A stretch of DNA of 60,529 nt from Fructobacillus sp. EFB-N1 (GCF_001038455.1 NZ_LDUY01000012.1:1-60529), one strand, 5' to 3'; counted from the first letter of the stretch, positions 103 through 60,445 are shown. Made by a program: numbers and translations. Notes: generated by a model not told the origin, from the letters alone.

Positions 103-813
103 ATGTACCACCGTGATGGACGATATTTTGAATTAAGTTGGCGGCAGGTTTACTTTTATTTTTTGCTCTCACTAACGCTCGATGCCCTTGGAAATGGGCT
201 TTCCGTGGCAACAAACCTCGGTTCTGCTCCGTGGACTGCCGGTGCAGCCAACTTGGCCCACGTTACCGGGGTACCGATTTCGATTTACCTGGCAGCAACG
301 ACCGTTTTGGTTGCCGTTGCAAATATCTTTTTGGCCAAAAAGTTTGTTTTCAAGCGTTTCCTCGGCAATATCACCTTCGGCCTTCTTTTTTCCTTTTTAG
401 CCGGCTTTTTCAATACTATTTTTGTTCAGATGGGTGTTCAGACAGTTTCACTGTGGCTCCGCATCCCACTCGATCTTTTTGGTGTTGCCGTCGTTGGAGT
501 CGCCATTTCGGTTTACCAGCGGGTTAACTTCATCCTTCATCCGATTGATGATATGACCAACATCCTACGCTTCTCCTACTTCCGTGGTTCCGCTCCCAAA
601 GCACAAATTTCCAACTTTATTTTTGCCATTGGTATTTCACTAGCTTGTTGGGCCTATTCGGGTAGTATCGTTTCCATTAACATCGGAACGGCCGTTTCCT
701 TCTTCTTGCAGGGACAAATTATCGCCTGGTCCGACAACCTAGTCTTCCCTCACCTTGTCCACGGCAATATGGATTTAACCCACAAGGATATCCCAGTCCA
801 AAACAAGGATTAA
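103..813 (+). CDS. YczE/YyaS-type integral membrane protein, function unknown
   Basis: The 236-residue protein has five or six hydrophobic segments separated by short loops, and a cytoplasm-like first 15 residues. The GNGLSVATNLGSAPW stretch near residues 31-45 is typical of the YczE/YyaS/YitT-like membrane family, whose substrate is not known. GGAAAGGCGG precedes the ATG at 103. The gene stands alone between the IS end and a terminator at 832-871, and its stop codon TAA runs directly into the repeated octamer AAAATCAG. Being next to an IS copy, its promoter may have been altered, and I see no clear -35 upstream. Membrane location is well supported and the role is not. Confidence 0.75.
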   Translation: MYHRDGRYFELSWRQVYFYFLLSLTLDALGNGLSVATNLGSAPWTAGAANLAHVTGVPISIYLAATTVLVAVANIFLAKKFVFKRFLGNITFGLLFSFLAGFFNTIFVQMGVQTVSLWLRIPLDLFGVAVVGVAISVYQRVNFILHPIDDMTNILRFSYFRGSAPKAQISNFIFAIGISLACWAYSGSIVSINIGTAVSFFLQGQIIAWSDNLVFPHLVHGNMDLTHKDIPVQNKD

Positions 814-831
814 AAATCAGTTTCAAACACA

Positions 832-871
832 AAAAGGCACCCACGTTCGAAATCGAACGCGAGTGCCTTTT
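832..871. terminator. Bidirectional intrinsic terminator
   Basis: AAAAGGCAC pairs with GTGCCTTTT around an inner hairpin CGTTCG-AAAT-CGAACG. It lies between the convergent YczE-like gene and folT and has T-rich flanks on both strands. Confidence 0.8.
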
Positions 872-954
872 CAGTTTACTGGCAAAAAACATCATAAAAA
901 GTTGCTTTACACCGTGAGCCAATCCCGCTTTCGAATTGGGATCAACCTGATTTT

Positions 955-1581
955 TTATGGTTTTGTTTGAATAGAATCAGCTTGCGCCGTTTGTTTCCTC
1001 TGTGACGGAAAGAATTGTTGACCAATTTGAGTTACAATGCGGTTATTCAAAACCAAATAAGTTAGAACCAACTGGATTGGGAAGAAAATCAATTGCTTTG
1101 GCAACCGTGCTGACAACATGGCCGAAAAGACCGACCATGAATGTTGTGGTGAATACATGACCATCAAGGCGAAGGTATTCACTAAAAAGTTAACCACAAA
1201 GGTAATCAGCAAAACGGCCACCAGGATTTTACCCCAGTGAACGGTCTTTGTCAGCGGCTGTTGGTAGAAGAACCCGCCATAAATAATTCCAGCTAACACA
1301 ACGCCAAAGGCCATAATTGGCGACCAGGCGCCATGGGCAACAAAAAAGGTCACATTAACGAAGTCGAGTAAGACCATCACCAGCATCGTCCAGATTGGAC
1401 CGAAGAACCGCCCCATCAGAGACGATGCCAAAAAGACAAAGGAAATCTTGATGGTTGGTGTCAGCATGACCGAAAACTTACCGATAACCAACGACAGGGC
1501 CATTAAGACCGCTAGCAAAACGAGCTGCTGGATCGACAAAGAAGACAGCCCCCATTTCTTGAAAACTGTGTGCTTGTTCAT
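955..1581 (-). CDS. folT: Folate ECF transporter substrate-binding subunit
   Basis: FolT is the membrane S component that binds folate and works with the shared EcfA/EcfA'/EcfT energising module, which is not in this window. The 208-residue protein begins MNKHTVFKKWG, has about six membrane segments, and shows the LxALsLVIGKFSVMLTPTIKISF region typical of ECF S components. A longer reading frame runs to 1641, but that would start inside a riboswitch. The ATG at 1581 has AGGAGG seven bases upstream. The gene is controlled by a THF riboswitch at 1612-1705 and probably by PurR. This regulation supports folate rather than another vitamin as substrate. Confidence 0.88.
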   Translation of the reverse strand: MNKHTVFKKWGLSSLSIQQLVLLAVLMALSLVIGKFSVMLTPTIKISFVFLASSLMGRFFGPIWTMLVMVLLDFVNVTFFVAHGAWSPIMAFGVVLAGIIYGGFFYQQPLTKTVHWGKILVAVLLITFVVNFLVNTFALMVMYSPQHSWSVFSAMLSARLPKQLIFFPIQLVLTYLVLNNRIVTQIGQQFFPSQRKQTAQADSIQTKP

Positions 1582-1611
1582 ATTCTTGAACCTCCTAAAG
1601 GAGCGTTCACC

Positions 1612-1705
1612 GGGTTGGTGAATGCGAAACCCGTACCGCACATAAATGTTTCGTCAGTGGCTCACATTCCGTTTCCACTGCACTTAACGCACGGGTTCCT
1701 ACCCC
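1612..1705 (-). promoter_or_regulatory. Tetrahydrofolate (THF) riboswitch
   Basis: On the minus strand the leader contains GGGGTAGG, GCGTTAAGTG, GGAATG, ACGAA, CGGTACGGG and CGCATTCACC in that order, which are the conserved blocks of the THF riboswitch found upstream of folT in Firmicutes. Just downstream, GAACGCTCC can pair with GGAGGTTC, hiding the folT ribosome binding site. Control is therefore probably of translation: THF binding would close the site. Confidence 0.88.
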
Positions 1706-1846: not shown

Positions 1847-3358
1847 TTACATCTTTGCTTCTAATTGAACGTCTGGATACTTATCCTTAAACCAGTTCAA
1901 TGCAAAATTATTTTCAAATAAGAAGACGGGACGGTCGTAGCGATCCTTGACTAGCAAGTTCCGCGATGAAGCCATCTTTTCGTCCACTTGGTCTGGGTTA
2001 ATCCAGCGGGCAACCTTTGAACCAATCGGCTCAAATTGAATTTCAACGTTATATTCATTTTCCATTCGGAACTTGAATACTTCGAATTGCAACTGTCCAA
2101 CAGCACCAAGAATATACTCGCTTGAGTTCCATGACTTGTACAGCTGAATGGTTCCTTCTTGGACCAGTTGGGTAATGCCCTTGTGATATGACTTTTGCTT
2201 CATCACATCCTTGGCAATGACCTTGTTAAAGTACTCAGGGGTAAAGGTTGGCAAATCAGGGAAACGCACAGCCTTCTTACCAGAGAAAATCGTATCACCG
2301 ATTTGGAAGTTCCCGGTATCATAGACACCGATAATATCGCCTGGAACGGCTCCCTGAACGTTTTCACGCTCTTCCGCCATGAACTGGGTCACATTGGCCA
2401 AACGAAGCTTCTTGCCCATTCTTTCCAGCATAACGTCCATGCCTCGTTCAAAGACACCAGATACAATTCGCACAAAGGCAATCCGGTCACGGTGACGAGG
2501 ATCCATGTTAGCCTGAATCTTAAAGACAAAACCAGTAAATTCAGGATTGTCTGGTTCAATCACCTGGTTATCAACTGTTGTTACCGGCGCGGGCATTGGC
2601 GCGTAAGTCAGGTATTCCCGCAAAAATTCGGTCACACCGAAGTTGGCTAAGGCGGAGCCAAAGAAGACCGGCGTTAACTTACCCGTAGCAACGGCCTCTT
2701 CGTCAAATTGGTTCCCAGCATCTTCCAACAATTCGACTTCATCCAATCCCTCTTGGCGAACTTCTGGATGGTCGGCTGCATTTTTAAAGGGAATCATTTC
2801 CTTTTGCTTCAAGTCATAGATTCCCTGCAAAATCTGTCCAGAGCCAATTGGCCAGTTCATTGGGTATGCTTGGATCCCAAGGATACTTTCCAATTCGTCC
2901 ACCAAATCCAATGGCGACCGGGCATCACGATCAATCTTGTTAAAGAAGGTAAAGACGGGAATGCCACGTTTTGAAACGATTTCAAACAGCTTCTTAGTTT
3001 GCGGCTCAATTCCCTTGGCAGCATCAACAACCATGACAACCGAATCAACGGCCATCAGTGTTCGATAGGTGTCTTCCGAAAAATCTTCGTGCCCCGGCGT
3101 ATCCAAAATGTTAATGCGCTTGCCTTCATAGTCAAACTGCAGGACAGAAGAGGTAACAGAAATACCACGCTGTTGCTCAATGGCCATCCAGTCCGATGAA
3201 GCCATCTTCTTGGCCCCACGACCCTTGACCGTTCCGGCTTCACGAATAACGCCACCATGGAGGAGTAATTGTTCCGTTAAGGTTGTTTTTCCCGCATCGG
3301 GATGGGAAATAATGGCGAATGTCCGCCGATTTTCTAATTCTTGTTCAAAGTTTTCCAT
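1847..3358 (-). CDS. prfC: Peptide chain release factor 3
   Basis: RF3 is the GTPase that removes RF1/RF2 from the ribosome after termination. The 503-residue protein has the G-domain motifs SHPDAGKTT (about 18-26), the switch DTPGHEDF and NKID, followed by the EF-Tu-like and C-terminal RF3 domains ending [11 protein letters not shown]. It is slightly shorter than the usual 520-530 residues but both ends look complete. There is no Shine-Dalgarno before the ATG at 3358. Instead a -10-like TAAAAT ends nine bases upstream, so the mRNA may be leaderless. A terminator sits just upstream, separating it from oppF. Confidence 0.95.
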
Positions 3359-3407: not shown

Positions 3408-3496
3408 AGAAACATCTGCTTTCAGTTCATCCTGAAACGCTTTTTTAATTTAAACTATTTAGGTTAGAAAATAGTAGGTACGTAAAGTGGTCTGAT

Positions 3497-4432
3497 TTAC
3501 TTTTGTTCTGCCTTGTATTGCTCAGCTTCCGCTGGTGTTGCCAAGACAAAGTGACCAGGTTCAACCTCAACCATCTTCCGTTCCTGTCCATCCTTTTCGA
3601 AGCTGGCATCGTATGGCTTAATCACACGCTGCTTTTCAACGATTGGGTCAGGTTCAGGCACAGCCGAAAGTAAGCTCTTGGTATATGGGTGCAATGGATG
3701 GTTATAAACTTCATCTGCAGTGCCCAATTCAACCAACTTTCCCCAGTGCATCACACCAATTCGGTCAGAGATGTACTTGACCATGGCCAAATCGTGGGCA
3801 ATAAAGAGGTAAGTCAATTTGTTTTGCTTTTGCAAATCAGCCAACAAGTTGACAACCTGAGCCTGAACAGAAACGTCCAAAGCTGAGATGGGTTCATCGG
3901 CAATGATAAACTTTGGCTGAACAGCCAACGCACGGGCAATTCCGATTCGTTGCTTCTGTCCACCAGAGAATTCGTGTGGGTATCGTGAGGCGTGGTCCTT
4001 GTTCAAGCCAACCAGCTTCAACAATTCCAATACCTTCGCTTCGCGTTCGGCACGCTTCTTGCTGTAACCAACCTGGTCAAGACCTTCGCCAATGATATCT
4101 TCAACCCGCAAACGGCCGTTCAATGAGGCCTGTGGGTCCTGGAAAATCATTTGCGCTTGCTTACGAAAGTCCTTCATTCCCTGCTTTTTCAACTGGCCCA
4201 AATCTTGACCATCAAAAGTAATGGTTCCTGAATCTTGGTCATACAGCTTCAGAATCGTCCGACCAATGGTCGTCTTTCCTGAACCTGACTCCCCCACCAA
4301 ACCAAAGGTTTCTCCTTCATAAATATCAAAGGAAATCTCATCAATTGCCTTAGTGGCGTTGCTCTTACCAGCGTTAAAAGTCAGGTTCAAGTCCTTAATT
4401 TCAACTAATTTCTTTGCATCTGGATTTTGCAT
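3497..4432 (-). CDS. oppF: Oligopeptide ABC transporter, ATP-binding protein OppF
   Basis: This is the second ATPase of the Opp importer; it hydrolyses ATP with OppD to drive peptide uptake. In 311 residues it has Walker A GESGSGKTT near 49-57, the Q-loop IFQDPQASLN, signature FSGGQKQR, Walker B FIIADEPISALD, and the C-terminal extension HPLHPYTKSLLSAVPEPDP typical of OppF/DppF. It overlaps the oppD stop by one base, so translation is coupled. It is the last gene of the operon and ends TAA-ATCAG, overlapping the dispersed repeat motif. Confidence 0.95.
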   Translation of the reverse strand: MQNPDAKKLVEIKDLNLTFNAGKSNATKAIDEISFDIYEGETFGLVGESGSGKTTIGRTILKLYDQDSGTITFDGQDLGQLKKQGMKDFRKQAQMIFQDPQASLNGRLRVEDIIGEGLDQVGYSKKRAEREAKVLELLKLVGLNKDHASRYPHEFSGGQKQRIGIARALAVQPKFIIADEPISALDVSVQAQVVNLLADLQKQNKLTYLFIAHDLAMVKYISDRIGVMHWGKLVELGTADEVYNHPLHPYTKSLLSAVPEPDPIVEKQRVIKPYDASFEKDGQERKMVEVEPGHFVLATPAEAEQYKAEQK

Positions 4433-5484
4433 TACTTGGCCCCCTCATTTTCTAAGGTCTGCCAAAATGCTTGGCGACGCTGAATCTCAAGTGGTGGTGT
4501 TACCTTTGGTGCCCGATCATCTAAGAGCCATGTGGCTGCAAAATGAGTTGGTGACACTTCAAAGAGTGGTGGCTGCTTTTCATGATCGATTGCCAAACCA
4601 TAGACGTTTCGATCCGCAAAAGCATCACCCTTTGGTGGGTAAAGCAAGTCAGTTGGCGTACCAGGAATGGCTTGCAAGGTACCGGACTCTGTCTTTGTTG
4701 ATGGCATTGACCCCAACAACCCCCATGTATATGGGTGTTGTGGATTATAGAAGACTTCGTTCACCAGACCGGTTTCAACAATCTTACCGGCATACATAAC
4801 AGCCACTCGATCGGCGATTCCAGCTACGACACCCAAATCGTGGGTGATAAAGATAATCGCCGTGTTGTTCTTCTTTTGCAACTTCTTCAAGACCTGCAAT
4901 ATTTGGGCCTGAATCGTCACATCCAAAGCAGTCGTTGGTTCATCGGCAATCAAAACCTTTGGATCAGCGGCCAATGCAATGGCAATAACGGCACGCTGAC
5001 GCATACCACCAGACCATTGGTGAGGATAATCATTGATATGTTCCTCAGCGTTTGGAATCCCAACATCCTTCATTAGTTGCAAGGCCTTCGCTAGTGCTTC
5101 GGCCTTTTCAACTTCGTGATGCTTCATGATTGGTTCCGCAATTTGGTTACCAATCTTCATCGTTGGGTCTAATGATGTCATCGGATCCTGGAAGACCATG
5201 GCGACTTCAGAGCCACGATAACCTTCCCATTCTTTTTCAGACAACTTGGCCAAATTCTTACCGTTGTAGAGAATTTGACTTTCTTCACCTAATTCAGCGT
5301 TTCCGGCATTTAGACCGAGGAGGGTCTTTGTCGTCACTGATTTACCAGAACCAGATTCCCCAACAATGGCCAGGGTTTCGCCAGCATTTAAGTCAAAATC
5401 AACGCCTCGAATCGCCTGGATTTTTCCAGCATAGGTGTTAAAGTCCACGCGGAGGTCTTTTACTTGTAAAATTGGTGCTACCAT
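4432..5484 (-). CDS. oppD: Oligopeptide ABC transporter, ATP-binding protein OppD
   Basis: First ATPase of the peptide importer. The 350-residue protein has Walker A GESGSGKS (about 40-47), Q-loop VFQDPMTSLDP, signature WSGGMRQR, Walker B VLIADEPTTALD and the family tail HPYTWGLLGSMP followed by a substrate-independent C-terminal segment. The start chosen is ATG 5484, with AGGAGG six bases upstream; a longer frame would run into oppC. It sits between oppC and oppF and overlaps oppF by one base. Confidence 0.95.
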   Translation of the reverse strand: MVAPILQVKDLRVDFNTYAGKIQAIRGVDFDLNAGETLAIVGESGSGKSVTTKTLLGLNAGNAELGEESQILYNGKNLAKLSEKEWEGYRGSEVAMVFQDPMTSLDPTMKIGNQIAEPIMKHHEVEKAEALAKALQLMKDVGIPNAEEHINDYPHQWSGGMRQRAVIAIALAADPKVLIADEPTTALDVTIQAQILQVLKKLQKKNNTAIIFITHDLGVVAGIADRVAVMYAGKIVETGLVNEVFYNPQHPYTWGLLGSMPSTKTESGTLQAIPGTPTDLLYPPKGDAFADRNVYGLAIDHEKQPPLFEVSPTHFAATWLLDDRAPKVTPPLEIQRRQAFWQTLENEGAK

Positions 5485-7646: not shown

Positions 7647-9287
7647 TTACTTCCGATAAGCGTTCGTCAAATCGAGCGTCAAACCGGCTGGGCTTGTAAC
7701 AACACCCTTAACATTGGAACGGGTCAAGTATGCACCCTTCCATGAGTAAAGTGGGTTGATGTTAGCACTGTTCTTCAAAGCTGCTTCAGCTGCCTTCCAG
7801 TCAGCGTCACGTGCAGATGGATTGTTAGCATCTGTGCTTTCAGCCTTTGTCACAGCGTCGATGTAGTCTTGGTTCTTGAACTGACCATTGTTCATACCAG
7901 TATCAGTTGCCTTGAACATGTCGTAGAAGGTTGAACCGTCTTGGTAATCACCGTTCCAGTTTGAAACAACGATATCGAAGTTACCATTTTGTGAATCTTG
8001 CAAGCGTTGCTTGAATGGGACAATCTTTTCAGTAACAGAAATTTGGTCACCGAACGTTGATTCCCAAGCCTGCTTCAAGTAATCAACTGTATTCTTTGAA
8101 ACTGGAACGTCAGCATCGGTTTCAAGAGTAACGTTCATCTTACCCTTGTTAACTTCCTTGATTCCTTCTGCAAAGAGTTGCTTTGCCTTGTCCTTGTCAT
8201 AAGAATAACCAGGAGCAACATAAGTTGACAAATCTTCACCATTAGCAGCCTTAACCAAGTTATTTGAAACGAGACTCTTAGCAGCATCACGAGATCCACC
8301 AGTTGCTTGGGAAGCCAATTCCTTACGGTTGGTTGCCAAGTTCAAAGCTTCGCGAATCTTTTCATTTTGCAAGTAAGGGTTCTTTGCTTGGTTGTACTCC
8401 AAGTAAGTTGAAGCAGCAACAGAAACTGTCTTCATATCCTTATTGTTCTTGTTAGCAGCGTACATTTCAGGCGAACCGGTAATAGAAGCGCGGTCAAGCT
8501 TACCTTCCTTGTACAACTTAATGGCTGTTTCAGGATTCTTGATAACTTGCCAGTTAATCGTCTTTGTCTTGACGTTCTTGGCGTTCCAATAGTCATCGTT
8601 CTTAACAATCTTGAACTTATTGTTCGTTCCGTTCCAGCCTTCCAACTTGTAAGGACCAGAATAAATTTGGTTTGCAGCAGTTGTTCCATACTTAGAACCC
8701 TTTTCCTTCACGAAGGATTCCTTCTGCGGTGCAAACTGAGTAAAGCTCAAAAGATACTTAAATTGCGGCATTGGCTTTTCCAAAGTGAAAGTCAAAGTAT
8801 TGCCATCTGCTTTAACACCTAAATCAGAAACTGGCTTCTTGCCAGCAACGATGTCATCAGCATTCTTCACACCTGATGTCAGATATGAATACTGTGAGGC
8901 AGTCTTTGGATCAGCGATTCGCTGCCAAGTATAAACAAAGTCCTTAGCAGTCAAAGCAGAACCATCAGACCATTTCAAACCTGAACGTAACTGAACGGTA
9001 TAAGTCAAACCGTCTGATGAGACGCTGTATGACTTAGCCAAATCAGGAGCTGGATCCCCCTTTGAGTTCACACGCAACAAGTTTGATTCCGTGTTTCCCA
9101 AAATCGTGTTTGAATACTGATCAGTACTCTTTGAAATATCCAACGTTTGAATTTCAGCTCCTAAACCGTAATTCAATGCTGATTTATCGTCTGAGGGACT
9201 TGTGCCCCACCAGCCAGCAGCTCGAGATCCCCCAACTGCGGCCAAAACAACGACTGCCGCAACAGTCCATTTCTGCCATCGTTTCAT
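7647..9287 (-). CDS. oppA: Oligopeptide-binding protein OppA
   Basis: Extracellular peptide receptor of the Opp system (SBP family 5). The 546-residue protein has an N-terminal hydrophobic segment (about 8-31), then the family fold with LNYGLGAEIQTLD, the conserved LRSGLKWSDGSALTAKDFVYTWQRI block near 105-130, and a C-terminal SWKGAYLTRSNVKG. ATG 9287 follows GAGGAGG. Unlike most Gram-positive OppA proteins it has no lipobox cysteine, so it is probably held by an uncleaved N-terminal helix or released. It is the first gene of the operon, with a clear promoter and a long structured spacer before oppB. Confidence 0.93.
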   Translation of the reverse strand: MKRWQKWTVAAVVVLAAVGGSRAAGWWGTSPSDDKSALNYGLGAEIQTLDISKSTDQYSNTILGNTESNLLRVNSKGDPAPDLAKSYSVSSDGLTYTVQLRSGLKWSDGSALTAKDFVYTWQRIADPKTASQYSYLTSGVKNADDIVAGKKPVSDLGVKADGNTLTFTLEKPMPQFKYLLSFTQFAPQKESFVKEKGSKYGTTAANQIYSGPYKLEGWNGTNNKFKIVKNDDYWNAKNVKTKTINWQVIKNPETAIKLYKEGKLDRASITGSPEMYAANKNNKDMKTVSVAASTYLEYNQAKNPYLQNEKIREALNLATNRKELASQATGGSRDAAKSLVSNNLVKAANGEDLSTYVAPGYSYDKDKAKQLFAEGIKEVNKGKMNVTLETDADVPVSKNTVDYLKQAWESTFGDQISVTEKIVPFKQRLQDSQNGNFDIVVSNWNGDYQDGSTFYDMFKATDTGMNNGQFKNQDYIDAVTKAESTDANNPSARDADWKAAEAALKNSANINPLYSWKGAYLTRSNVKGVVTSPAGLTLDLTNAYRK

Positions 9288-43933: not shown

Positions 43934-43981
43934 ATTCATTTCCTTAATTGATTTTACTATTATGTAGTCCTGAACTAAAAA

Positions 43982-46915: not shown

Positions 46916-46944
46916 TTGCTGATTTAAAAGGCCTATCATATAAT
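46916..46944 (+). promoter_or_regulatory. thrE promoter
   Basis: TTGCTG (46916-46921) and TATAAT (46939-46944) are 17 bases apart. An inverted pair of octamer-like sites, AAAATCAG at 46879 and CTGATTT overlapping the -35, lies here. Confidence 0.7.
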
Positions 46945-50171: not shown

Positions 50172-51128
50172 TTATTTAAAGAGCATTGTCGCAACGGTAT
50201 TCACGACAGGCACAACCACCACAAAGAGAATGGTTGATGTGGTGACGACGTTCGTGGCGTACTTCACGTCGCCATTAGCCTCATTGGCCAAAATTGGCAG
50301 AACAGCCAAAGCCGGCGTAGCAGCTTGCACTGCCAAAGTCTGAGCTTCAAGGTGTGGTAAATGGCCCAAGAAGCCGCCGGCAAAGACCAACAGTGTCAAC
50401 ATAACTGTCGGTGCAAAGATAAAGCGCCCAACTAAGGCAACAACCGTGTCCTTGTCAAAGTGAATGCTTTTTAAGCCAGCATCCGCTAGGACAATCCCAA
50501 TGTAAATCAGGGACAATGGCGTGACCAAGTTACCAACGTAAGTCAGTGTTGACGTTGCAAAATCAGGAACTGGAATGGCCAGGAGTAAGAAGGCCAAGGC
50601 CACCAGGAACCCAATCAATGGAGCGGGCAAAAGTTTCTTCCAATTGAAAGCCCTTTGTCCTTTATCTGGGTTATCATTGGCAATAATCAAAGCACCAATG
50701 GCCCAGGTCGAAACCGTATTCATTACATAATAAACCAGGAAGTAAGATAAGGCCTGGTTACCAAAGAGGGCCACATTTAAGGGCAAGCCAATAAAGATGG
50801 TATTGGCATTAACGACAACGTTAATAAAGGTCCCTTTGCGGCCAGGACGGACCTTGAAGACATAAGCCAAAATGTAGGCAACTAAGTAGCTAATGGCAAA
50901 TGAGAGGAAGGCGTAAACCAACCCTCCAGACAAGGACACTAATTTATCACGTGTCAAAAACTTTAAGACCGACACAAAAATCGATGCCGGTAAGGCGATA
51001 TTGGTAATCAAACGGGAAATATTCCCGGAAAAACCGTCAGCAAACCAACCCCACTGGCGCAAAATAAAACCAAGGGCAATCATCAAGATGATTGTCACAA
51101 CACTTTCAATCGAATTCAAAAATGCCAT
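50172..51128 (-). CDS. mleP: AEC-family transporter, probable malate permease
   Basis: The 318 residues have ten predicted membrane segments arranged as two repeats, with VVNANTIFIGLPLNVALFG and the C-terminal ANEANGDVKYATNVVTTST motif of the auxin efflux carrier family. In lactic acid bacteria the AEC member next to malolactic enzyme takes up malate, and here it follows mleA on the same strand by 176 bases. GGGAGT precedes the ATG. The assignment to malate rests on this context. Confidence 0.82.
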   Translation of the reverse strand: MAFLNSIESVVTIILMIALGFILRQWGWFADGFSGNISRLITNIALPASIFVSVLKFLTRDKLVSLSGGLVYAFLSFAISYLVAYILAYVFKVRPGRKGTFINVVVNANTIFIGLPLNVALFGNQALSYFLVYYVMNTVSTWAIGALIIANDNPDKGQRAFNWKKLLPAPLIGFLVALAFLLLAIPVPDFATSTLTYVGNLVTPLSLIYIGIVLADAGLKSIHFDKDTVVALVGRFIFAPTVMLTLLVFAGGFLGHLPHLEAQTLAVQAATPALAVLPILANEANGDVKYATNVVTTSTILFVVVVPVVNTVATMLFK

Positions 51129-51237
51129 AAAAACTCCCTTCTACGGGTGGCGCCTGATTATCACAGCCCCATCCACTTCTCAGCGCTGATGTGGTCACTG
51201 ATTTTCCATGAACTTCACTATTTTTAAAAAATTGTAC

Positions 51238-51304: not shown

Positions 51305-52927
51305 TTAGTACTTAGGTTCCCACTTCAAGTCTTCGATGGCCTTCTTCACGTCGGCGATCTCTTCCTTCGTGATCTTCTGGTCAACAGCTGACTGAGCAGT
51401 GGCGATAGCAACTGTCTCTGAGAAGACAGTCAACTTTGAAACTGGTGGCAAAACGGCTGCCCCTGGCTTTGATGCATCAACAATACCACCCAATGAGTGA
51501 GCAGCGGCTGAAATCATTTCATCATTCAAAACCTTTGCAGTTGAGGCGATTGTTCCAAGACCAAGTCCTGGGTAAACCAAGGCGTTGTTAGCTTGACCGA
51601 TTTCGTAAGTAACACCCTTGTATTCGATTGGGTCAACTGGAATTCCAGTCGCAATCAAGGCCTTACCATCAGTCCATTCAAGCAAGTCTTCAGCCTTTGC
51701 TTCAGCCAATTTCGTTGGGTTTGACAATGGGAAGATAACTGGACGCTCAGTGTGAGCAGCCATTTCTTGTACAATTTCCTTGGTAAAGGCACCTGGTTGA
51801 GTTGAAGTTCCAACCATGATTGTTGGGTGAATTTCCTTCACAACAGCTGCCAAGTTTGTCAAATCAGCAGCGTTTGCGAATTCTGAACGTGAGCGGGCGA
51901 ATGGCTTTTGTTCAGGAGTCAAATCATCCATGTCGTCGAAGAGCAAACCTTGCTTGTCCACCATGTAGATGTGCTTGCGAGCTTCTTCTTCAGACAAACC
52001 TTCTTGCAACATTTCTTCGAACATCCGGTTGGCGATACCTGCACCGGCTGAACCTGCACCGAATGTCAAGTAAGTCTGGTCAGACAACTTTTCACCAGTG
52101 ATAGTCATGGCACCCAAAGCAGCTGCCAAAGTGATGATTCCAGTTCCTTGGATGTCATCGTTAAATGTTGTAATCTTGTCCTTATACTTGTCCAAGATAA
52201 CAGCGGCGTTTGAACGGCCAAAGTCTTCCCAGTGCAAGTACAAGTTAGGGAACAAGTTTTCAGCAGCTTCAACAAAGCTGTCAACAAATTCCGTATACTT
52301 TTCGCCGCGAACACGTTCGTGACGGTTACCCAAGTACATGTCGTTGTCCAACAATGATTGGTTGTTTGTTCCGTTATCCAAGACAACAGGCAAAACGTTT
52401 TCAGGGTTAACACCGGCAGCCGCCGTATAAACCATCAACTTACCAACGGCGATATCAACACCGTTCGTTCCCCAATCACCGATACCCAAGATTCCTTCGG
52501 CATCTGTGACAACAATCAACTTGATGTCACGACCATTGGCACCAGCCTTCAAGGCTGATTCCATAACGTCTGGTTCGTCGATTGACAAGTAAACAGCGTT
52601 TTGTGGATCAACAAACAATTCTGAGTAGTTTTCAATCGTGTCAGCAATCACTGGATCATAAACGATCGGCATAAACTCAACCACGTGTTGTCCGAACAAG
52701 TAGTAAAACAATGTGTGGTTTGTGTTGAAGATTTCCATCAAGAACAAGCGCTTTTCCAAATCAGAAGGCTTTGATTGGTATTGTGCGTATGCTTGTGCTG
52801 ATTGTTCTTCCAAAGTTTGCACGCGGGGAGGCAAAAGACCGGCAACGCCGAGTTCCTTACGTTCTTCCATCGTGAACCCTGTTCCCTTGTTCAAGAAGGG
52901 ATTATTTAAAATCTCAATTGGTGTCAT
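51305..52927 (-). CDS. mleA: Malolactic enzyme
   Basis: Converts L-malate directly to L-lactate and CO2 with NAD+ and Mn2+, raising pH and creating proton motive force. The 540 residues closely follow the Oenococcus enzyme: [48 protein letters not shown] with metal ligands, the NAD site [14 protein letters not shown] and the end LKWEPKY. AAGGAGCC precedes ATG 52927. Expression is probably activated by the divergent MleR. Confidence 0.97.
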
Positions 52928-53129: not shown

Positions 53130-54047
53130 TTGCGCATAACTGATTTACAATACTATTTAGCCCTCGCAACCTACCGAAACTTTTCTCAGGTTTCTGAAAA
53201 ATTCGAGATTTCCCAGCCAACGGTGTCGCTTGCGATGCAGCGGTTGGAAAAAGAGCTTGGCGCCAAGCTCATTTTGCGACAGGCAGCGCATAAAAACGTG
53301 ACACTGACCCACGCCGGCGAAGTTTTGCGACAACATGCTACCTTGATTGTGGAACAGTACCAGGTTGCCCAAACGGAGATCAAACGCGACAGTGAAGAAT
53401 CACTTTTGATTGGTTTGCCACCCATTATTCAAGTTGCTTACTTTCCAGCCATTGCAACGGTCTTATCTGACGATTCACTCGCCCATTTGAAAACAGTTGA
53501 AGTCGGGGCCCAAGAGGCCATCGACCAGTTAAAAAATGGTGAGCTCGACGCTTCCTTTGTCGGCTATCTCGATGACATCGATCAAAGCGAATTCAATTTA
53601 ATCGCCTTTGACGAGCAGCCCTTTGCTATTTTGGCTGCCGACGACTACCCCTTGGTTCAAAAAGGGTCCGTGTCATTTGAAGACATCAAAGACGAAAGAT
53701 TCATCCTATTGAAAGGTAACTTCGTTCATACCCAGGCTTTCGACCAGTTGGCCCGAGCCGCCCATTTTCATGCCAACGTTTTGTTTAATTCCTCGGAACC
53801 CTACGGAATTCTAAGCCTGATTCGACAAAATCGTGGGATTGGCTTTATGGTCCACCACCCAGCGTTAACTTTCCCGGGTGTGACCGCATTGCCAATCACA
53901 GATGACGACCAGCCCATGTTTAAGGTCGGCTTTGCTTACCGAAAAGACATTGTCTTAACGGATGCGCAACAGCAGATTTTTGATGAGCTCTTGGCCGCCA
54001 CCAAAATTGGACGGCCGGATCACAGAACACCCCCACTGGAGGAATGA
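53130..54047 (+). CDS. mleR: LysR-family regulator of the malolactic genes
   Basis: Activator that responds to malate in related systems. The 305 residues have the LysR winged helix (1 to about 60) with LALATYRNFSQVSEKFEISQPTVSLAMQRLEKEL and a periplasmic-binding-type ligand domain (about 85-295). TTG 53130 is six bases after GGAG; a longer frame from TTG 53118 would place the ribosome binding site inside the gene. It is divergent from mleA, with a LysR box between, and its end overlaps the ribosome binding site of the next gene. Confidence 0.9.
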   Translation: MRITDLQYYLALATYRNFSQVSEKFEISQPTVSLAMQRLEKELGAKLILRQAAHKNVTLTHAGEVLRQHATLIVEQYQVAQTEIKRDSEESLLIGLPPIIQVAYFPAIATVLSDDSLAHLKTVEVGAQEAIDQLKNGELDASFVGYLDDIDQSEFNLIAFDEQPFAILAADDYPLVQKGSVSFEDIKDERFILLKGNFVHTQAFDQLARAAHFHANVLFNSSEPYGILSLIRQNRGIGFMVHHPALTFPGVTALPITDDDQPMFKVGFAYRKDIVLTDAQQQIFDELLAATKIGRPDHRTPPLEE

Positions 54048-54049: not shown

Positions 54050-54955
54050 ATGCAAAAGAAGAAAACAACCATCGTGGTCACAATCTTAGTACTGATTTTG
54101 GCTGTCGTTGGTGGATTAGTTGCTTGGCAAAGCAACAGTCAAAAAGATGACAAAAAATCTGACAAGTTAACCATTGTCGCTTCAACAAACGTCTATGCCG
54201 AATTGGCCAAGACGGTTGCAGGCGACCATGCTGATGTTTCAGCGATTATTACCAAGCAGTCCGTTTCACCGGAAGATTATGAGCCAACCAACGCAGTTGC
54301 TAAAAAGGTTGCCAAGGCGGACATCGCCTTTGGAAATGGTTTAGGCTACGATGCTTGGTTACAGAAATTAGCTAAAACATCGAAGTCAACGCAAGTGCTC
54401 TATGTTGGTAACGATATTTTGAACAAAAAGTCTGGTTCAAATCCCCACTTGTGGAATGATCCAGAAAACATGATTAAGGCCGCTCAAGGTTTGGCTGATA
54501 CACTCAGCAAGAAAGATCCAAAGCACAAGGCTGATTATCAAGCCAATGCACAGGACTACGCCACAAAGCTTAAGCCAGTGACCGACAAGATTGCCGAATT
54601 GAAATCAGCAGTCGCCGGTAAGGAAGTCATGGAAACCGAGCCAGTTTACGAATACATGTTGGACGCCTTGGGTGCCAACGTGGTCGGCACTGATTTTGCC
54701 GAAGCGATTGAAGAAGGAAATGACCCTTCACCAGCCGTCTTGACGGACATCCAAAACAAGATCAAGAGCCACGAACTCGCCTTCTTGGTTTACAACACGC
54801 AAACCACAGGCGGCACTGTTGATAAGATCGTCAAGTTGGCCAAGGACAACAACATCCCAATCGTTAAGGTGACGGAAACTTCACCAGAAAAGACTTCTTA
54901 CGTTGACTGGAAGCTCAGTGAATTGAAGCAAGTCCAAGAAATTGTTGCTAAGTAA
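54050..54955 (+). CDS. Metal-binding ABC substrate-binding protein (ZnuA/MntA-like)
   Basis: Extracellular receptor for zinc or manganese uptake (SBP family 9). The 301 residues have an N-terminal hydrophobic helix (about 7-28), KLTIVASTNVYAELAKTVAG, SPEDYEPT, NPHLWNDPENM, a long backbone helix and TEPVYEYMLDALG. Two of the usual His ligands are replaced by Glu (PED and TEP), a variant known in one subgroup. There is no lipobox cysteine and no permease or ATPase gene nearby. ATG 54050 is seven bases from GGAGG, which overlaps the mleR end, so it is probably co-expressed with mleR. Confidence 0.85.
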   Translation: MQKKKTTIVVTILVLILAVVGGLVAWQSNSQKDDKKSDKLTIVASTNVYAELAKTVAGDHADVSAIITKQSVSPEDYEPTNAVAKKVAKADIAFGNGLGYDAWLQKLAKTSKSTQVLYVGNDILNKKSGSNPHLWNDPENMIKAAQGLADTLSKKDPKHKADYQANAQDYATKLKPVTDKIAELKSAVAGKEVMETEPVYEYMLDALGANVVGTDFAEAIEEGNDPSPAVLTDIQNKIKSHELAFLVYNTQTTGGTVDKIVKLAKDNNIPIVKVTETSPEKTSYVDWKLSELKQVQEIVAK

Positions 54956-55001
54956 AAATCAGCAAATAAAAAGAGCGAAGGACGAAATCCTTCACTCTGA
55001 T

Positions 55002-55093: not shown

Positions 55094-56476
55094 TTACCGT
55101 GTTACCAGTAGCTCTTGTCCCCGGCTGATTTCCTTGAGGACGTTGGCAACGGCCGTGCCACCAAGCGACGTCCGACGATTAACGGCGGCCTTGGAAGTCA
55201 ACTCTTCATAGACATCTTCTTCGATATGGCTGTCGGCGGCCTGGAGATCTACCAACGACATTTCATTGAGTGTTTGCCCCGTTTGGATGCCCTTCAAAAC
55301 TAACTCACCGACAACCGCATGCGCTTGACGGAAAGGCACACCCTTCGTGGCCAAGTAGTCAGCCAATTCGGTGGCGTTCGAGAAGTCATCCTTCGTGGCA
55401 GCTTCCATCCGGTCAGCGTGGACCGTCATCGTTGATAACATCCCCGTAAAGACCTTCACGGAGGCCAAAATGGTGTCCATTACCTCGAATGTGGCTGCCT
55501 TATCTTCCTGCATATCCTTGTTGTAAGCCAATGGCAAGCCCTTCATAACCGTCAACAATCCCATCAAGCTCCCAAAGACGTGGCCGGTCTTGCCTCGCAC
55601 GAGTTCGGCAAAGTCCGCATTCTTCTTTTGGGGCATAATCGATGATCCGGTTGAGAAGTTGTCTGAAAGTTCAATGTAATTGAACTCGTAGGTCCCCCAT
55701 AAAATCAGTTCCTCCGCCATCCGGGACAAATGCACCATCAAAATCGAGGCATTCGAGAGAAACTCGAGGGCAAAATCCCGATCCGAAACGGCATCCAAAC
55801 TATTGTGATAGATGGCATCGAAGTCCAATTCGTCAGCGACCAGTTGACGGTCAATTGGGAAGGTCGTGCCCGCCAAGGCAGCAGCGCCCAATGGCAGCAT
55901 ATTCGTATGCTTTTCGTTAAATTCGAACCGTTCAAAGTCACGCTGGAACATTTCGAAGTAGGCCAAAAGGTAGTGACCATAGCTAATGGGCTGGGCGTGT
56001 TGCATGTGCGTATAGCCCGGCATAATCACATCAGCGTGCTTCTTGGCTAAGTCAAGGAGAGTCTGCTGTAATTCCGTGATAGCTTCCTTGACTGCTGGTA
56101 AGCGGTGCTTCACCCACAAATGAAAGTCCGTCGCCACCTGGTCATTCCGTGATCGACCCGTATGCAGTTTGCCCGCCACTGGACCAATTTTTTTCGTCAA
56201 CAAGGACTCAATATTCAAGTGGATATCCTCATTTGCAACCGAAAATTCCACCTTGCCAGTGCCCAAATCAGCCTGAATGTCGTGCAGGCCGGCACTGATT
56301 TGCTCAGCTTCTTCAACTGAAATAATGCCTTGCTGGCCTAACATTTTCACGTGGGCCAATGAGCCCTCCGGGTCTTCTTCTGCCAACCGGTAATCAAAGC
56401 CGATTGAGGCGCCAAATTCATCGACCCATTCTGCTGCTTTGCCGGTAAACCGGCCACCCCATAATTTATCGGACAT
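55094..56476 (-). CDS. argH: Argininosuccinate lyase
   Basis: Splits argininosuccinate into arginine and fumarate, the last step of arginine synthesis. The 460 residues start [21 protein letters not shown] and contain [13 protein letters not shown] (about 106), [10 protein letters not shown] (about 156) and the signature [12 protein letters not shown] with the catalytic Ser (about 276). GGAGA precedes the ATG and it follows argG by 11 bases, forming argGH. Confidence 0.97.
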
Positions 56477-56487: not shown

Positions 56488-57702
56488 CTATTTCTTTTGT
56501 TCTGAATGGACGTGGTTGACTTGCTCAAAGACCATGCTTGGCAATGACCACAACTTAATGAATCCACCAGCAGCGACTTGATCAAAGCTATCAGCCGCTG
56601 TATATGTGGCTAAGTTTTTGTTGTACAGTGAGTTTTCCTCAGACTTCCGTGCAACGGCAACGGCTTGTCCCTTGTACAACTTCATCTTGACTGTCCCGTT
56701 CACAACCTGTTGTGTCTGGTCCATGAAGGCCTGTAAGGCATCAAAGAGTGGCGTAATCCACAAAGCATTGTAAATCAGGTCCGTCACCTTCTGTTCCAAC
56801 AAAGGCTTGTAGTGCGCAACGTCACGCTCCAACGTCAAGTCTTCCAAGTCCTTGTGAGCAGCCATAATCACAGCTGCGGCTGGTGCTTCATAAACTTCAC
56901 GAGACTTAATGCCAACCAAACGATTTTCAATCTTATCAATTCGGCCAATGCCATTGGCACCGGCAATCTGATTTAGCTTGACAATCAACTGAGCCAAGGT
57001 CATCTTTTCACCATCAAGTGCAACTGGCAAGCCTTCTTCAAAGGTCAAGTCCAAGAATATTGCTTCCTCCGGTGCATCTTCTGGTGCAACCGTCATGCCC
57101 CAAGCATCATCGGGTGCCATGTTCCAAGGATCTTCGAGAATGCCGGCTTCATTAGCACGGCCCCACAAGTTGGCATCAATTGAGTATGGTGATTGCTTAC
57201 CAATTGGCACTGGAACGTTGTGGTCCTTAGCGTAATCGATTTCTTCTTCACGCGACCAGTGGAAGTCACGAATTGGGGCCTCGATAGCCAAATCAGGATC
57301 CAAGGCGTGGATGGCAGCTTCGAAACGAACCTGATCGTTTCCCTTACCAGTGGAACCGTGGGCAATAGCATCTGCCCCGTTTTCATGAGCAATCTCAACT
57401 AATTTCTTAATAATCAATGGCCGTGAAAGAGCTGAAACCAAAGGATAAGCGCCTTCATACAAGGCGTTGGCCTTGATCACTGGTGCCACGTATTCGCTGG
57501 CGAATTCTTCCTTACCATCAACAACGATTGACTGGGCTGCACCAACTTGGAGGCCCTTCTTTTGGATTTCATCCAAATCCTTACCACCTTGACCAACGTC
57601 CAAGACAACGGCGATCACTTCATAACCCTTATCAATCAGCCATGGAATGGCCACAGATGTATCTAATCCACCTGAATATGCCAATACGATTTTCTTTGTC
57701 AT
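56488..57702 (-). CDS. argG: Argininosuccinate synthase
   Basis: Joins citrulline and aspartate using ATP. The 404 residues begin with the ATP loop [16 protein letters not shown] and have [15 protein letters not shown] (about 115). GAGGAGA precedes ATG 57702. Upstream of it a TGAGCCG/CGGCTCA stem (57768-57807) without a T-run lies behind the transporter gene. No clear ArgR box or promoter was found, so it may be read from the T-box transporter operon or have its own weak promoter. With argGH alone, arginine could be made only from citrulline. Confidence 0.97.
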
Positions 57703-57807: not shown

Positions 57808-57817
57808 GCCAACTGAT

Positions 57818-58561
57818 TTAATCCACCAAAACCTTACTAATAAAGTCCTGAGTCTTTGGATTTTGTGGGTGGTCAAACAGTTCATCCGGTGTATTCTTTT
57901 CCTGGATAATGCCATCGGCCATAAACCAAATTTCATCGGCGACCTGCTTAGCGAAGTGCATTTCGTGGGTTACGACCACCATGGTCATATTACCGTCGGC
58001 CAATGACTTCATGACCTTGAGAACTTCACCGACATTTTCTGGATCCAAAGCTGAGGTTGGTTCATCAAAGAACAAAACCTTAGGCTGCATTGCCAAAGCA
58101 CGGGCGATGGCCACACGTTGCTTCTGCCCACCAGACAAGCTGTTTGGGAAGGCATCGGCCTTATCGGCCAAACCAACGCTTGTCAGATATTTCATGGCCA
58201 CAGCAGTCGCCTCTTCGTCGGACATGCCCTTTACTCGCATTGGTGCTAATTTCAAATTGGCCAAAACCGACATATTAGGGAAGAGGTTAAAGCTTTGGAA
58301 AACCATGCCGATTTGTTCACCCAACTTGGCCAATTCCTGGTCAGACTGTTGAGCTAAATCAACACCGTTGAAATCAACAACACCGCTGGTTGGACGTTCC
58401 AGCTGGTTAATGCAGCGGAGCAAGGTACTCTTACCTGATCCAGAAGGGCCGATGATGCAGACCACCTGGCCGGCATCAATGTCGCCGTTAATGTCTTTTA
58501 AAACTTCATTGCCACCGAAGTCTTTTTTGAGATGTTTTACAGAAATTAATGGATTAGTCAT
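57818..58561 (-). CDS. Polar amino-acid ABC transporter, ATP-binding protein
   Basis: ATPase of a GlnQ/ArtP/HisP-type importer. The 247 residues contain Walker [10 protein letters not shown] (about 38), Q-loop [14 protein letters not shown], signature LSGGQKQR and Walker [15 protein letters not shown]. Its start overlaps the end of the binding-protein-permease gene by eight bases. It ends TAA-ATCAG, another stop codon merged with the octamer core. Confidence 0.93.
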
Positions 58562-60017
58562 GGTTCATCTTCCCTTCTAAGTAGTTCAATCCCCGTGTCA
58601 AGATAAAGGTCATCAAGAAGTAAATCACCATGACAACCACGATTGGTGCGATACCACGATAAGTGTCAGCACGGACGATGTTCAATTCGTAGACCAAATC
58701 AGTCACACCGATAATCGAAACAATGGAACTTTCCTTGATAACTGAGATAAATTCGTTGCCCAATGCTGGCCAAATGTTCTTAAAGGCCTGTGGCAAAATC
58801 ACAAAACGCATCGTGTCTTTTTGGTTCAAGCCAAGACTCTTGGCAGCTTCCTTTTGTCCCTTATCCAATGACGTAATTCCACCACGGATAATTTCAGCAA
58901 CATAGGCACCTGAGTTCAAGGAAACGGCAATGATACCGGCCGTCAAGGCTGGGATGTTAATCAAAGCACCAAGACCAAAGTAAACCAAGAGGATTTGAAC
59001 CATCATTGGTGTTCCCCGGACAATTTCGATGTAAGAAATTGCTGGCCAACTCAAGATTTTAAACTTTGACATCTTCATCAAGGCCAAGATAATTCCTAGG
59101 ATAATTCCAAAGACAACTGAAACGAAAGCAATTAAGGTGGTGTTTAAGAAACCACTGTAGAAGTAGTGCCAGTAGCGAAGCATTGACGTGTCCACCGTGT
59201 TTTCGGACATGTTCTTACCGGCGTTCTTCAAGTAAGTCTTAATCCAGCCATGGTTCTCAATCTTATCGATTGACTTGTTGACTGCTGCTACCAATTCAGG
59301 ATTTCCTTTAGCAAAGGCAATCGCTGCACCGGTTTGGTTGATATCCAACTGGTAGCCGGAATCAATCATCTTCAAATTTTTGTCGTTGGCAACATAAGCC
59401 TGGGCAACTGGCTTTTCAACTCCAACGGCTGCCACCTTGTTCGTCTTCAAGGCGAAAATCAGGTTTGGCGTCTTGTCCATTCCAACAACTGTAGCTCCTG
59501 AAATCTTTTGTTGAGCCAAGTTATATTGCAAGGTTCCGGTTTGGGCACCAATCTTGGTTCCCTGCAAGTCACTAGCATTCTTATACTTTGAAGCGTTGGT
59601 CTTACTGATCAAGAAGCTTTGACCACCGTTGTAGTAAACCTTTGAAAAATCAACGCTTTGACGACGTTCGTCGGTTGGGTTGATTCCCCCGATAGCCATG
59701 TCAACCTTGCCAGTTTGAACGGCCACCAAGACGGAACTAAAGTCCATGTTCTTGATTTCTAATTTCACGCCCAAGTCCTTAGCAATCTGCTTAACGATGT
59801 CAACGTCCATTCCAACATCCGTTGAAGTGCCGTTTTTATTCATCTGGAATTCGTATGGTGGGTAATCCGGCGAAATCGCCACCTTCATCACACCTGCTTT
59901 TTTAATTTTTTGCAAGCCGTCATCAGCATGGGCCACTTGGGTCATGCCTAATCCGGCGACAACCAAAACAGTGATCGTGATGAATGCTTGTTGCAACCAC
60001 TTTGTTATCTTCTTCAT
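58554..60017 (-). CDS. Amino-acid ABC transporter, fused substrate-binding protein and permease
   Basis: A single 487-residue chain. It has a signal peptide (about 1-31, site AHA-D), a type-3 amino-acid binding domain (about 37-265, with PDYPPYEFQ and [42 protein letters not shown]) and then a permease domain (about 285-485) with four or more helices and the EAA loop [33 protein letters not shown]. Such fusions resemble lactococcal GlnP. The exact amino acid is not certain: the fold suits glutamine, arginine or another polar residue. Expression is governed by the T-box upstream. Confidence 0.93.
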
Positions 60018-60049
60018 CTTCTCGTCCTCTTCCCTTTTTTCCTAACCAA

Positions 60050-60312
60050 TAAAAAAACGCCCTTTAGTCTTTCGACTAAAGGACGTTCTGCACGCGGTAC
60101 CACCTTACTTATACCCAAATAGGGTATCTCTCATTATTCGATCTAAAATTCAAATCGTCAGCTCTGTAATGGGAGCACCCAGTATGGTTTTCATCGCATA
60201 CAACTATTAGGTGACGTTCATCTTCGTTTGTACGTGTTTCACACCAACCAACACTTCACTGAGCTACAAAACAGAGATTACTACTTCCTAATTAACGTTT
60301 TATTATTAGTTT
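60050..60312 (-). promoter_or_regulatory. T-box riboswitch controlling the amino-acid transporter
   Basis: On the minus strand stem I is closed by ATTAGG/CCTAAT, with AGTA opposite GAAC-GTC-ACC (specifier region 60211-60218). The T-box AAGGTGGTACCGCG is at 60106-60093, and a strong terminator ACGTCCTTTAGTC/GACTAAAGGGCGT with T-run at 60086-60050. The specifier is most likely GTC (valine), because the next base should be a purine. CGT (arginine) is possible from context. The bulge TGGT requires discriminator A, which argues against histidine. Uncharged tRNA would allow read-through into the transporter genes. Confidence 0.9.
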
Positions 60313-60318
60313 TTAATA

Positions 60319-60346
60319 ATTATAGCACTGACACCTAATCTTGCAA
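60319..60346 (-). promoter_or_regulatory. Promoter of the T-box leader
   Basis: TTGCAA (60346-60341) and TATAAT (60324-60319), 16 bases apart on the minus strand. Confidence 0.8.
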
Positions 60347-60445
60347 GTGGTTTTGCACATTTTTTTCGTTTTATTCGGACTTTTTTACTTAAAAAGGCTG
60401 ATTTTAAGGGGAATGATCATCTAAAAGTTATTGGTTATTTTAATT

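Follow-up and report, generated by a model that had tools for sequence, protein, structure and literature searches.

AAATCAG, a non-polar heptamer over-represented in a Fructobacillus subclade and a possible analogue of DNA uptake sequences

Why does one octamer, AAAATCAG, recur so often on both strands of a contig of Fructobacillus sp. EFB-N1? Here, we describe this word in a window that comprises the whole stretch analysed (60,529 bases, 45% GC; contig C12 of the 1.637-Mb draft genome, hereafter G000), and follow it through its host genus, Fructobacillus, and a survey of 251 Lactobacillaceae genomes from 40 genera (genome sizes rounded to 0.1 Mb). The excess is real and extends over the whole genome, and its true unit is the heptamer AAATCAG, which the octamer contains. 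We lean, on balance, towards reading AAATCAG as the genomic footprint of an analogue of the DNA uptake sequences of natural transformation, now partly decaying; biased DNA uptake as the cause, and the protein that reads the word, are what we infer from its distribution.

Abundance and placement of AAATCAG

The window contains 42 copies of the octamer (20 on the + and 22 on the - strand); base composition predicts 2.6 copies and a third-order Markov model 7.3, for excesses of about 16-fold and 5.8-fold, respectively. An initial annotation had put the excess at about 15-fold, close to this value, from a slightly low count of 39 copies (18 and 21), and the octamer coordinates it named are correct to within one base. 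AAATCAG is the top-scoring 7-mer of the window, with 87 copies (47 on +, 40 on -) against 20.8 expected; each copy is given below, marked where it also lies within AAAATCAG, with the octamer start added where it differs.

814..820, + strand, AAATCAG in octamer from 813
947..953, - strand, AAATCAG in octamer
2253..2259, + strand, AAATCAG
3492..3498, - strand, AAATCAG
3834..3840, + strand, AAATCAG
5337..5343, - strand, AAATCAG
8821..8827, + strand, AAATCAG
9040..9046, + strand, AAATCAG
9179..9185, - strand, AAATCAG
10087..10093, + strand, AAATCAG
11373..11379, - strand, AAATCAG in octamer
12116..12122, + strand, AAATCAG
13538..13544, + strand, AAATCAG in octamer from 13537
14072..14078, - strand, AAATCAG in octamer
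14312..14318, - strand, AAATCAG in octamer
15070..15076, - strand, AAATCAG
15216..15222, - strand, AAATCAG
15401..15407, + strand, AAATCAG in octamer from 15400
15935..15941, - strand, AAATCAG in octamer
16316..16322, + strand, AAATCAG
16718..16724, - strand, AAATCAG
16815..16821, + strand, AAATCAG
17430..17436, + strand, AAATCAG
18479..18485, + strand, AAATCAG
18690..18696, + strand, AAATCAG in octamer from 18689
20393..20399, + strand, AAATCAG
21732..21738, + strand, AAATCAG in octamer from 21731, inverted pair with 21761
21761..21767, - strand, AAATCAG in octamer, inverted pair with 21731
25406..25412, + strand, AAATCAG
25922..25928, - strand, AAATCAG in octamer, CTGATTTTTCAG palindrome
26209..26215, - strand, AAATCAG in octamer
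28395..28401, - strand, AAATCAG
28812..28818, - strand, AAATCAG in octamer
29523..29529, + strand, AAATCAG
29566..29572, + strand, AAATCAG in octamer from 29565
31741..31747, - strand, AAATCAG in octamer, inverted pair with 31769
31770..31776, + strand, AAATCAG in octamer from 31769, inverted pair with 31741
32326..32332, + strand, AAATCAG
32411..32417, - strand, AAATCAG in octamer
33203..33209, + strand, AAATCAG in octamer from 33202
34438..34444, - strand, AAATCAG
34520..34526, + strand, AAATCAG in octamer from 34519
35493..35499, - strand, AAATCAG in octamer
37242..37248, + strand, AAATCAG
38152..38158, + strand, AAATCAG
38512..38518, - strand, AAATCAG in octamer, CTGATTTTTCAG palindrome
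39221..39227, + strand, AAATCAG in octamer from 39220
39891..39897, - strand, AAATCAG in octamer, CTGATTTTTTCAG
40205..40211, - strand, AAATCAG
42392..42398, - strand, AAATCAG
43096..43102, + strand, AAATCAG in octamer from 43095
43501..43507, - strand, AAATCAG
43979..43985, + strand, AAATCAG in octamer from 43978
44100..44106, + strand, AAATCAG
44568..44574, - strand, AAATCAG
45408..45414, + strand, AAATCAG
45429..45435, - strand, AAATCAG in octamer
45920..45926, + strand, AAATCAG in octamer from 45919
46024..46030, - strand, AAATCAG in octamer, CTGATTTTTCAG palindrome
46880..46886, + strand, AAATCAG in octamer from 46879
46919..46925, - strand, AAATCAG
48595..48601, + strand, AAATCAG
48732..48738, - strand, AAATCAG in octamer
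48895..48901, - strand, AAATCAG in octamer, inverted pair with 48949
48950..48956, + strand, AAATCAG in octamer from 48949, inverted pair with 48895
49875..49881, + strand, AAATCAG in octamer from 49874
50504..50510, + strand, AAATCAG
50560..50566, + strand, AAATCAG in octamer from 50559
51198..51204, - strand, AAATCAG in octamer
51861..51867, + strand, AAATCAG
52758..52764, + strand, AAATCAG
53140..53146, - strand, AAATCAG
54092..54098, - strand, AAATCAG in octamer
54602..54608, + strand, AAATCAG
54690..54696, - strand, AAATCAG in octamer
54956..54962, + strand, AAATCAG in octamer from 54955
55125..55131, - strand, AAATCAG
55702..55708, + strand, AAATCAG in octamer from 55701
56265..56271, + strand, AAATCAG
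56295..56301, - strand, AAATCAG
56772..56778, + strand, AAATCAG
56968..56974, - strand, AAATCAG
57290..57296, + strand, AAATCAG
57813..57819, - strand, AAATCAG
58696..58702, + strand, AAATCAG
59456..59462, + strand, AAATCAG in octamer from 59455
60398..60404, - strand, AAATCAG in octamer

Genome-wide, G000 holds 957 octamers and 2183 copies of AAATCAG, against 79 and 183 for the reversed-word controls. AAATCAG ranks first among 7-mers by z-score in stretches of G000, G073 (Fructobacillus tropaeoli F214-1) and G100, and in each its fold excess is the highest of all 7-mers with at least 20 expected copies. The perfect word is enriched 3.0- to 3.9-fold in these three genomes, whereas its one-mismatch forms are not in excess (observed/expected ratios, O/E, of 0.93, 0.91 and 0.98). 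The flanks carry no extended consensus beyond a weak preference for A before the core and for C, rather than A, behind it. Indels, too, involve few copies, and a longer repeat or a mobile miniature inverted-repeat transposable element was rejected on these grounds.

To analyse placement, we made our own gene calls for stretches of G000 (481 kb), G073 (320 kb) and G100 (480 kb), using synonymous-codon shuffles within each gene as the coding null and a third-order Markov model as the intergenic null. In that order of genomes, AAATCAG is enriched 3.77-, 3.84- and 2.96-fold on the sense strand of coding DNA, 4.59-, 4.39- and 3.40-fold on the antisense strand, and 3.71-, 3.41- and 2.78-fold in intergenic DNA, and the reversed word is not enriched in the three genomes (0- to 1.28-fold). 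Earlier, smaller sets gave the same pattern, except for a 1.9-fold intergenic value in G100 (11 kb). Because enrichment is alike in all three compartments after correction, AAATCAG acts at the level of DNA and not of RNA or codons; the synonymous shuffles rule out codon usage as its cause, and the excess withstood both the Markov and the codon-usage test, which had been set beforehand.

The word had been described as concentrated between genes, with more than half of the octamers intergenic or on a stop codon. By our calls these are 21 of 42 in the window (18 intergenic, 3 overlapping a stop codon), an intergenic share inflated by small genes that the caller overlooks, and most AAATCAG copies lie inside genes. 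The octamer is indeed denser in intergenic than in coding DNA (1.01 vs 0.58 per kb in 461 kb of G000), as is the heptamer, more mildly (1.74 vs 1.39), but after correction for local composition or codons the fold excess is about equal in the two; over the larger sets, the heptamer stands at 1.76 intergenic vs 1.38 coding per kb in G000 and 1.04 vs 1.07 in G100. The intergenic preference is thus mostly an effect of composition, together with a small real excess directly after stop codons, where, for 1086 genes from the three genomes, the initial 25-base bin holds 52 sense copies vs 13-24 in each of five later ones. These post-stop copies are a small share of the total, and the earlier emphasis on gene ends and terminators is otherwise mostly not borne out.

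Inverted pairing also stands in part. Among AAATCAG pairs less than 60 bp apart in the three genomes, 77 of 108 are inverted, whereas the baseline given by G000 pairs at spacings of 200-800 bp is 55% (P = 0.0007). Close pairs in themselves, however, are no commoner than chance predicts. Of the palindromes read as CTGA-TTTT-TCAG, those at 25922, 38512 and 46024 are exact, and the one at 39891 has six T.

On the G-rich strand, taken as leading, lie 294 of 668 copies in G000, 137 of 314 in G073 and 201 of 489 in G100 (41-44%). AAATCAG is without leading-strand polarity, as the initial annotation had held in arguing against Chi and KOPS. KOPS, the FtsK-orienting sequences, have polarity as their defining feature and are ruled out for AAATCAG on this ground, although they too are short words spread chromosome-wide. 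In two low-copy genomes, G126 and G150, strand counts of AAATCAG are unequal (364:194 and 247:159), perhaps through coding-strand bias with consistently oriented contigs.

Clade-specific words, mobile DNA and turnover of copies

AAATCAG exceeds 1000 copies per Mb in 3 of the 251 survey genomes only, G000, G073 and G100 (about 1150-1400 per Mb, with 1628 copies in the complete 1.41-Mb chromosome of G100), and stands at about 570 per Mb or less in the others by our reading of the table. The three form one subclade around F. tropaeoli in a tree of the 3.7-kb comG locus from 13 Fructobacillus genomes, and their aligned stretches share 95.3%, 89.2% and 89.7% identity pairwise. The same unbiased k-mer scan found other words in other Fructobacillus species. 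F. ficulneus JCM 12225 (G251, outside the survey draw), sister to the AAATCAG group, has no AAATCAG excess (18 copies vs 24 expected in 80 kb) and favours AAATTAA (90 vs 36 expected in the same 80 kb of this one genome; 2.2- and 2.7-fold in coding and 1.9-fold in intergenic DNA). In G212, the top word is AAAGTCG or CAAAGTC, enriched 4.5- to 4.7-fold and 4.0- to 4.8-fold in coding DNA and 3.3- and 1.7-fold in intergenic DNA; it is also enriched in G150, G173 and G244 (2.1- to 2.7-fold). Genome-wide, AAAGTCG numbers 767-1288 copies in G150, G173, G194, G212 and G244 vs 248-454 in the other 8 of the 13 genomes. These five rich genomes belong to the seven-member other main clade of the genus, whose remaining members, G041 and G228, carry 454 and 345 copies (1.09-fold in 100 kb and 1.9-fold in 41 kb). 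No clear word emerged from the stretches scanned in 4 of the 13 genomes. AAATCAG, AAATTAA and AAAGTCG all begin with AAA and the variants follow the tree: they are clade-specific dialects sharing AAA.

In DNA of low GC, in mobile DNA and in islands, AAATCAG occurs at close to chance frequency. When 5-kb segments were split at 39% GC, ignoring the motif and with low GC as no more than a proxy for acquisition, those below the threshold (8 of 125 in G000, 7 of 91 in G073, 8 of 110 in G100) had O/E of 1.38, 2.85 and 1.19, against 4.05, 4.24 and 3.32 in the remainder. Further stretches were picked as motif-poor first and identified afterwards: the lowest densities in G000 are on a 57-kb contig, probably conjugative (O/E 1.19 and 1.45), and in G100 a phage- or satellite-like stretch with a VapE-like protein and terminase, a polysaccharide cluster, and an Ig-like/mucin-binding surface-protein region score 0.96, 0.92 and 0.38. 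Three other low stretches so scored (L019, L021 and L026) have O/E of 2.94, 2.06 and 3.29, and a comparison of core and accessory densities on a 149-kb contig had just 774 bases without an aligned relative to draw on. The 57-kb low-GC contig (G000:C8; L017, L018) encodes a conjugation coupling protein, an antigen I/II-type adhesin, type III restriction-modification and a reverse-transcriptase domain, and is likely a conjugative plasmid or integrative and conjugative element.

Turnover was followed in the gap-free intervals of a 152-kb three-way alignment of G000, G073 and G100, where presence in the three genomes (1, present; 0, absent) is distributed as 111, 151 copies; 110, 76; 101, 8; 100, 10; 011, 19; 010, 15; and 001, 26. 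Divergence 4-50 bp around conserved copies is higher than around conserved control words (0.0549 vs 0.0438 per site), so retention was recalibrated, with expected losses and gains set from local divergence and control words. Losses were 19 vs 26.5 expected in G000 (P = 0.08), 8 vs 18.2 in G073 (P = 0.006) and 76 vs 93.4 on the G100 branch (P = 0.04); pooled, 103 vs 138, or 0.75 of expectation (P = 0.001). Gains were 4 vs 1.9 in G073 and 13 vs 8.1 on the G100 branch, and 18 vs 12.4 overall (1.45 of expectation, P = 0.08). Individual copies, whose conservation the initial annotation had proposed to check, are therefore kept, though incompletely: loss is rarer than local divergence predicts, and rarest in F. 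tropaeoli.

Private copies number 30 in G000 vs 63 in G073 (244 kb aligned, P = 0.0008), G000 being a genome with a comEC deletion, and G100 has the fewest (64 vs 148 against G000; 42 vs 112 against G073). Of 397 G000 copies aligned to G073, 30 differ by substitution and only 3 involve a gap; the corresponding numbers for G000 against G100 are 148 and 9, and G073 copies private relative to G000 differ by substitution in 63 cases and by indel in 5. Gains and losses alike proceed by varied point substitutions at different positions. For AAAGTCG, G212 and G173 have 33 of 76 sites in common, a conservation of 0.606 vs 0.360 for control words without local correction, and private AAAGTC copies number 57 in G212 vs 40 in G173 (P = 0.10).

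Competence genes and competing explanations

As for the com genes, to which the initial annotation had pointed, comEC, comEA and comGA-type ATPase matches are found in 13 of 13 Fructobacillus genomes, and the comG operon is complete in each of the five genomes for which it was listed. With one genome per species, the lesions that follow may be strain-level or assembly errors. In G100, comEC is in fragments with a large part missing, comEA is frameshifted, and the Walker A motif of comGA is altered (by inspection). In G000, comEC lacks about 127 codons and has a stop flagged in its 5' part, where a contig breaks, and in G073 comGA has an in-frame stop, with comEA and comEC intact. Less com damage goes with more copies and better retention, in the order G073, G000, G100 (n = 3); in the AAAGTCG clade, comEC is split in G173 and intact in G212. 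Between the two closest genomes, the ratio of nonsynonymous to synonymous substitution rates (dN/dS) is 0.08-0.32 for comGB, comGC, comGE, comGF and comGG, 0.77 for comGD (on 11 changes), and 0.19 for a neighbouring methyltransferase-like gene between comGG and the acetate kinase gene, which we take to be ytxK (five genomes; L139, L146, L065, L120, L121). These low values suggest that selection acted on most comG genes until a recent time. The comGC frame of the three AAATCAG genomes has about 75 extra codons before the pilin signal that are not in G251 or G212 (L139, L146, L065), and the real start may be internal. In G251, the addA match is split over two frames and comEC has a run of N, likely assembly errors.

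Under the uptake model that we favour, a competence protein that meets incoming double-stranded DNA would prefer AAATCAG. The most likely reader would be the ComG pilus, through the minor pilins of its tip, or else ComEA. Uptake in Streptococcus pneumoniae is described as depending on residues of ComGF, and less on ComGD, at the minor-pilin tip (PMC12040237, in extract), which makes ComGF and ComGD the first candidate readers. Transforming DNA would thereby be enriched for fragments bearing the word, and recombination of such tagged fragments would spread new copies and repair lost ones, a molecular drive by which copies could fill tolerated positions on either strand, within genes as well as between them. 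Related species would read other versions, AAATTAA in F. ficulneus and AAAGTCG in the other main clade, and with competence genes damaged in G000 and its two relatives the tag would be partly decaying; Frye and colleagues considered that DNA uptake sequences (DUS) could slowly degenerate once specificity is lost (PMC3630211, in extract). A tag this weak would act as a bias, not a gate.

The uptake reading, which the initial annotation had also raised, draws support from the dialects, the near-chance occurrence in mobile and low-GC DNA, the few near-misses, the slow loss and the lack of polarity. Several observations weigh on the other side. Next to DUS or the uptake signal sequences (USS) of Pasteurellaceae, AAATCAG would be a weak tag, having 7 bp and 3-4 times the copies that the Markov model predicts, and about a quarter to a third of its copies are expected by chance. 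All three AAATCAG genomes carry a damaged competence gene, G041 and G126 have an intact comEC frame yet no comparable word (in 100 kb and 48 kb), and G001 shows a mild AAATCAG excess (44 vs 23 expected in 96 kb, 1.9-fold). There is no gene-terminus bias, with decile ratios of 3.3-5.1 and the first decile lowest (836 genes). In the turnover set, G000 gains fall below expectation (1 vs 2.4); polarised counts look non-equilibrium, the G000 and G073 tips having lost 19 and 8 copies; and about half of the 25 tip-only copies are double losses rather than gains by our own arithmetic. Retention is barely higher than that of same-composition control words before correction (0.888/0.867, 0.950/0.904 and 0.665/0.633), and the greater divergence around conserved copies means that no local homogenisation is seen. 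Finally, recent selection on comG gives no clean date for the loss of competence and fits a long decay poorly.

That AAATCAG is instead a site to which a nucleoid protein or another organiser of the chromosome binds throughout the core chromosome seems unlikely to us, even though spacing is near random (coefficient of variation 0.94-1.08), copies lie on both strands in coding and intergenic DNA and are near chance in low-GC DNA, and no single gene set stood out (gene functions being without a dedicated test). Such a site would have to differ between clades of one genus and fall in number in G000 and G100 relative to G073, and no candidate protein is at hand.

A Chi site of the AddAB/RexAB nuclease, over-represented as a protection of chromosomal ends, is the strongest single alternative by kind, but it fails on polarity and we regard it as improbable. 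A Chi word is short, over-represented and non-palindromic, is scarce in foreign DNA and differs between genera, and AAATCAG shares all of these traits except the last, differing within a genus; AddA matches occur in 13 of 13 Fructobacillus genomes, 12 of them above the family cut-off. Known Chi words, however, favour the leading strand, and those of Gram-positives are G-rich, whereas AAATCAG is neither polar nor G-rich. Its maintenance also seems weaker with more competence damage though the AddA frame is open (small numbers). The word that does have the polarity of a Chi or KOPS, and the occurrence throughout the genus that these would show, is GGGGATG, enriched 1.9- to 5.3-fold in stretches of 12 of 12 Fructobacillus genomes and polar to the G-rich strand in the nine tested (66:1 in G100, 48:3 in G212, weakest at 22:10 in G150), which is a candidate for the KOPS or Chi of the genus. 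Two further words are enriched in the same stretches: GCTAAG/CTTAGC (1.4- to 2.3-fold in all 12 genomes; leading-strand bias in some, 303:134 in G100 and 35:35 in G251) and CATAGGC (1.6- to 3.8-fold; most copies lie on the C-rich strand, as do 55 of 65 in G000).

A by-product of context-dependent mutation or repair bias, or a methyltransferase target, is very unlikely. In its favour, AAATTAG, one transition away and the exception among one-mismatch forms, is enriched 1.66- to 1.95-fold in the AAATCAG group, and the conjugative element and the phage-like stretch carry methyltransferase genes. Set against this, AAATCAA, the other transition product, is not enriched (0.86-0.93), no neighbour is strikingly depleted (TAATCAG is lowest at 0.56), gains come through different substitutions at different positions, and loss is reduced relative to local divergence. 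An RNA-level element (terminator, 3'-end processing or Rho/Nus site), the last two of which the initial annotation had named among its alternatives, is scarcely credible, since the post-stop excess and the inverted lean of close pairs are outweighed by like sense and antisense enrichment within coding regions and by the majority of copies lying inside genes.

Comparison with known systems and significance

The Pasteurellaceae and the Neisseriaceae, both Gram-negative, are the two families for which DNA uptake has been described as sequence-specific (PMC5031613, in extract). Like AAATCAG, Neisseriaceae DUS are short genome-wide words with dialects around a shared inner core; some of their copies are paired as terminators (PMC3630211 and PMC12616744, in extract), and they have been used to tell acquired elements from the core genome (PMC7371117, in extract). 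They differ in being about 10-13 bases long and read by the minor pilin ComP in Gram-negative hosts (PMC12616744 and PMC12040237, in extract), whereas the Fructobacillus word has 7 bp, a 3- to 4-fold excess over Markov expectation, a putative receptor only and a Gram-positive host. Pasteurellaceae USS resemble it in their subclade-specific types, the excess of perfect over mismatched copies, an origin by point substitution, and occurrence in coding and non-coding DNA (PMC1626085, in extract). Some USS copies form inverted pairs (PMC1626085, in extract), where AAATCAG shows a lean in the orientation of its close pairs without an excess of them. Unlike it, they have a 9-bp core with an extended form (PMC12616744, in extract), are far more specific, with about 4 per Mb expected by chance (PMC1626085, in extract), and show an intragenic terminus bias (PMC2346458, in extract).

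We would liken AAATCAG to these sequences by its mode of working; by descent it belongs with neither the Neisseriaceae nor the Pasteurellaceae sequences. We see even chances that Fructobacillus evolved sequence-specific uptake independently of both, as the first such case in Gram-positives, with at least three dialects, each of a species group within the genus, and decay of the tag after breakage of com genes. Among the matches listed from the open-licence literature, there is no earlier report on Fructobacillus competence or transformation or on this word, and none of a Gram-positive or Firmicutes uptake sequence.

Should AAATCAG turn out not to tag DNA for uptake, a heptamer that is non-polar, 3- to 4-fold enriched and variable by clade within one genus would still lack an explanation. 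If the uptake reading is true, neither an outer membrane nor a secretin is needed for uptake bias to arise, a second pilus type becomes available for the receptor search, and dialects between close relatives lend themselves to swap experiments. The tag would then mark Fructobacillus lineages that are transformable now or were so recently.

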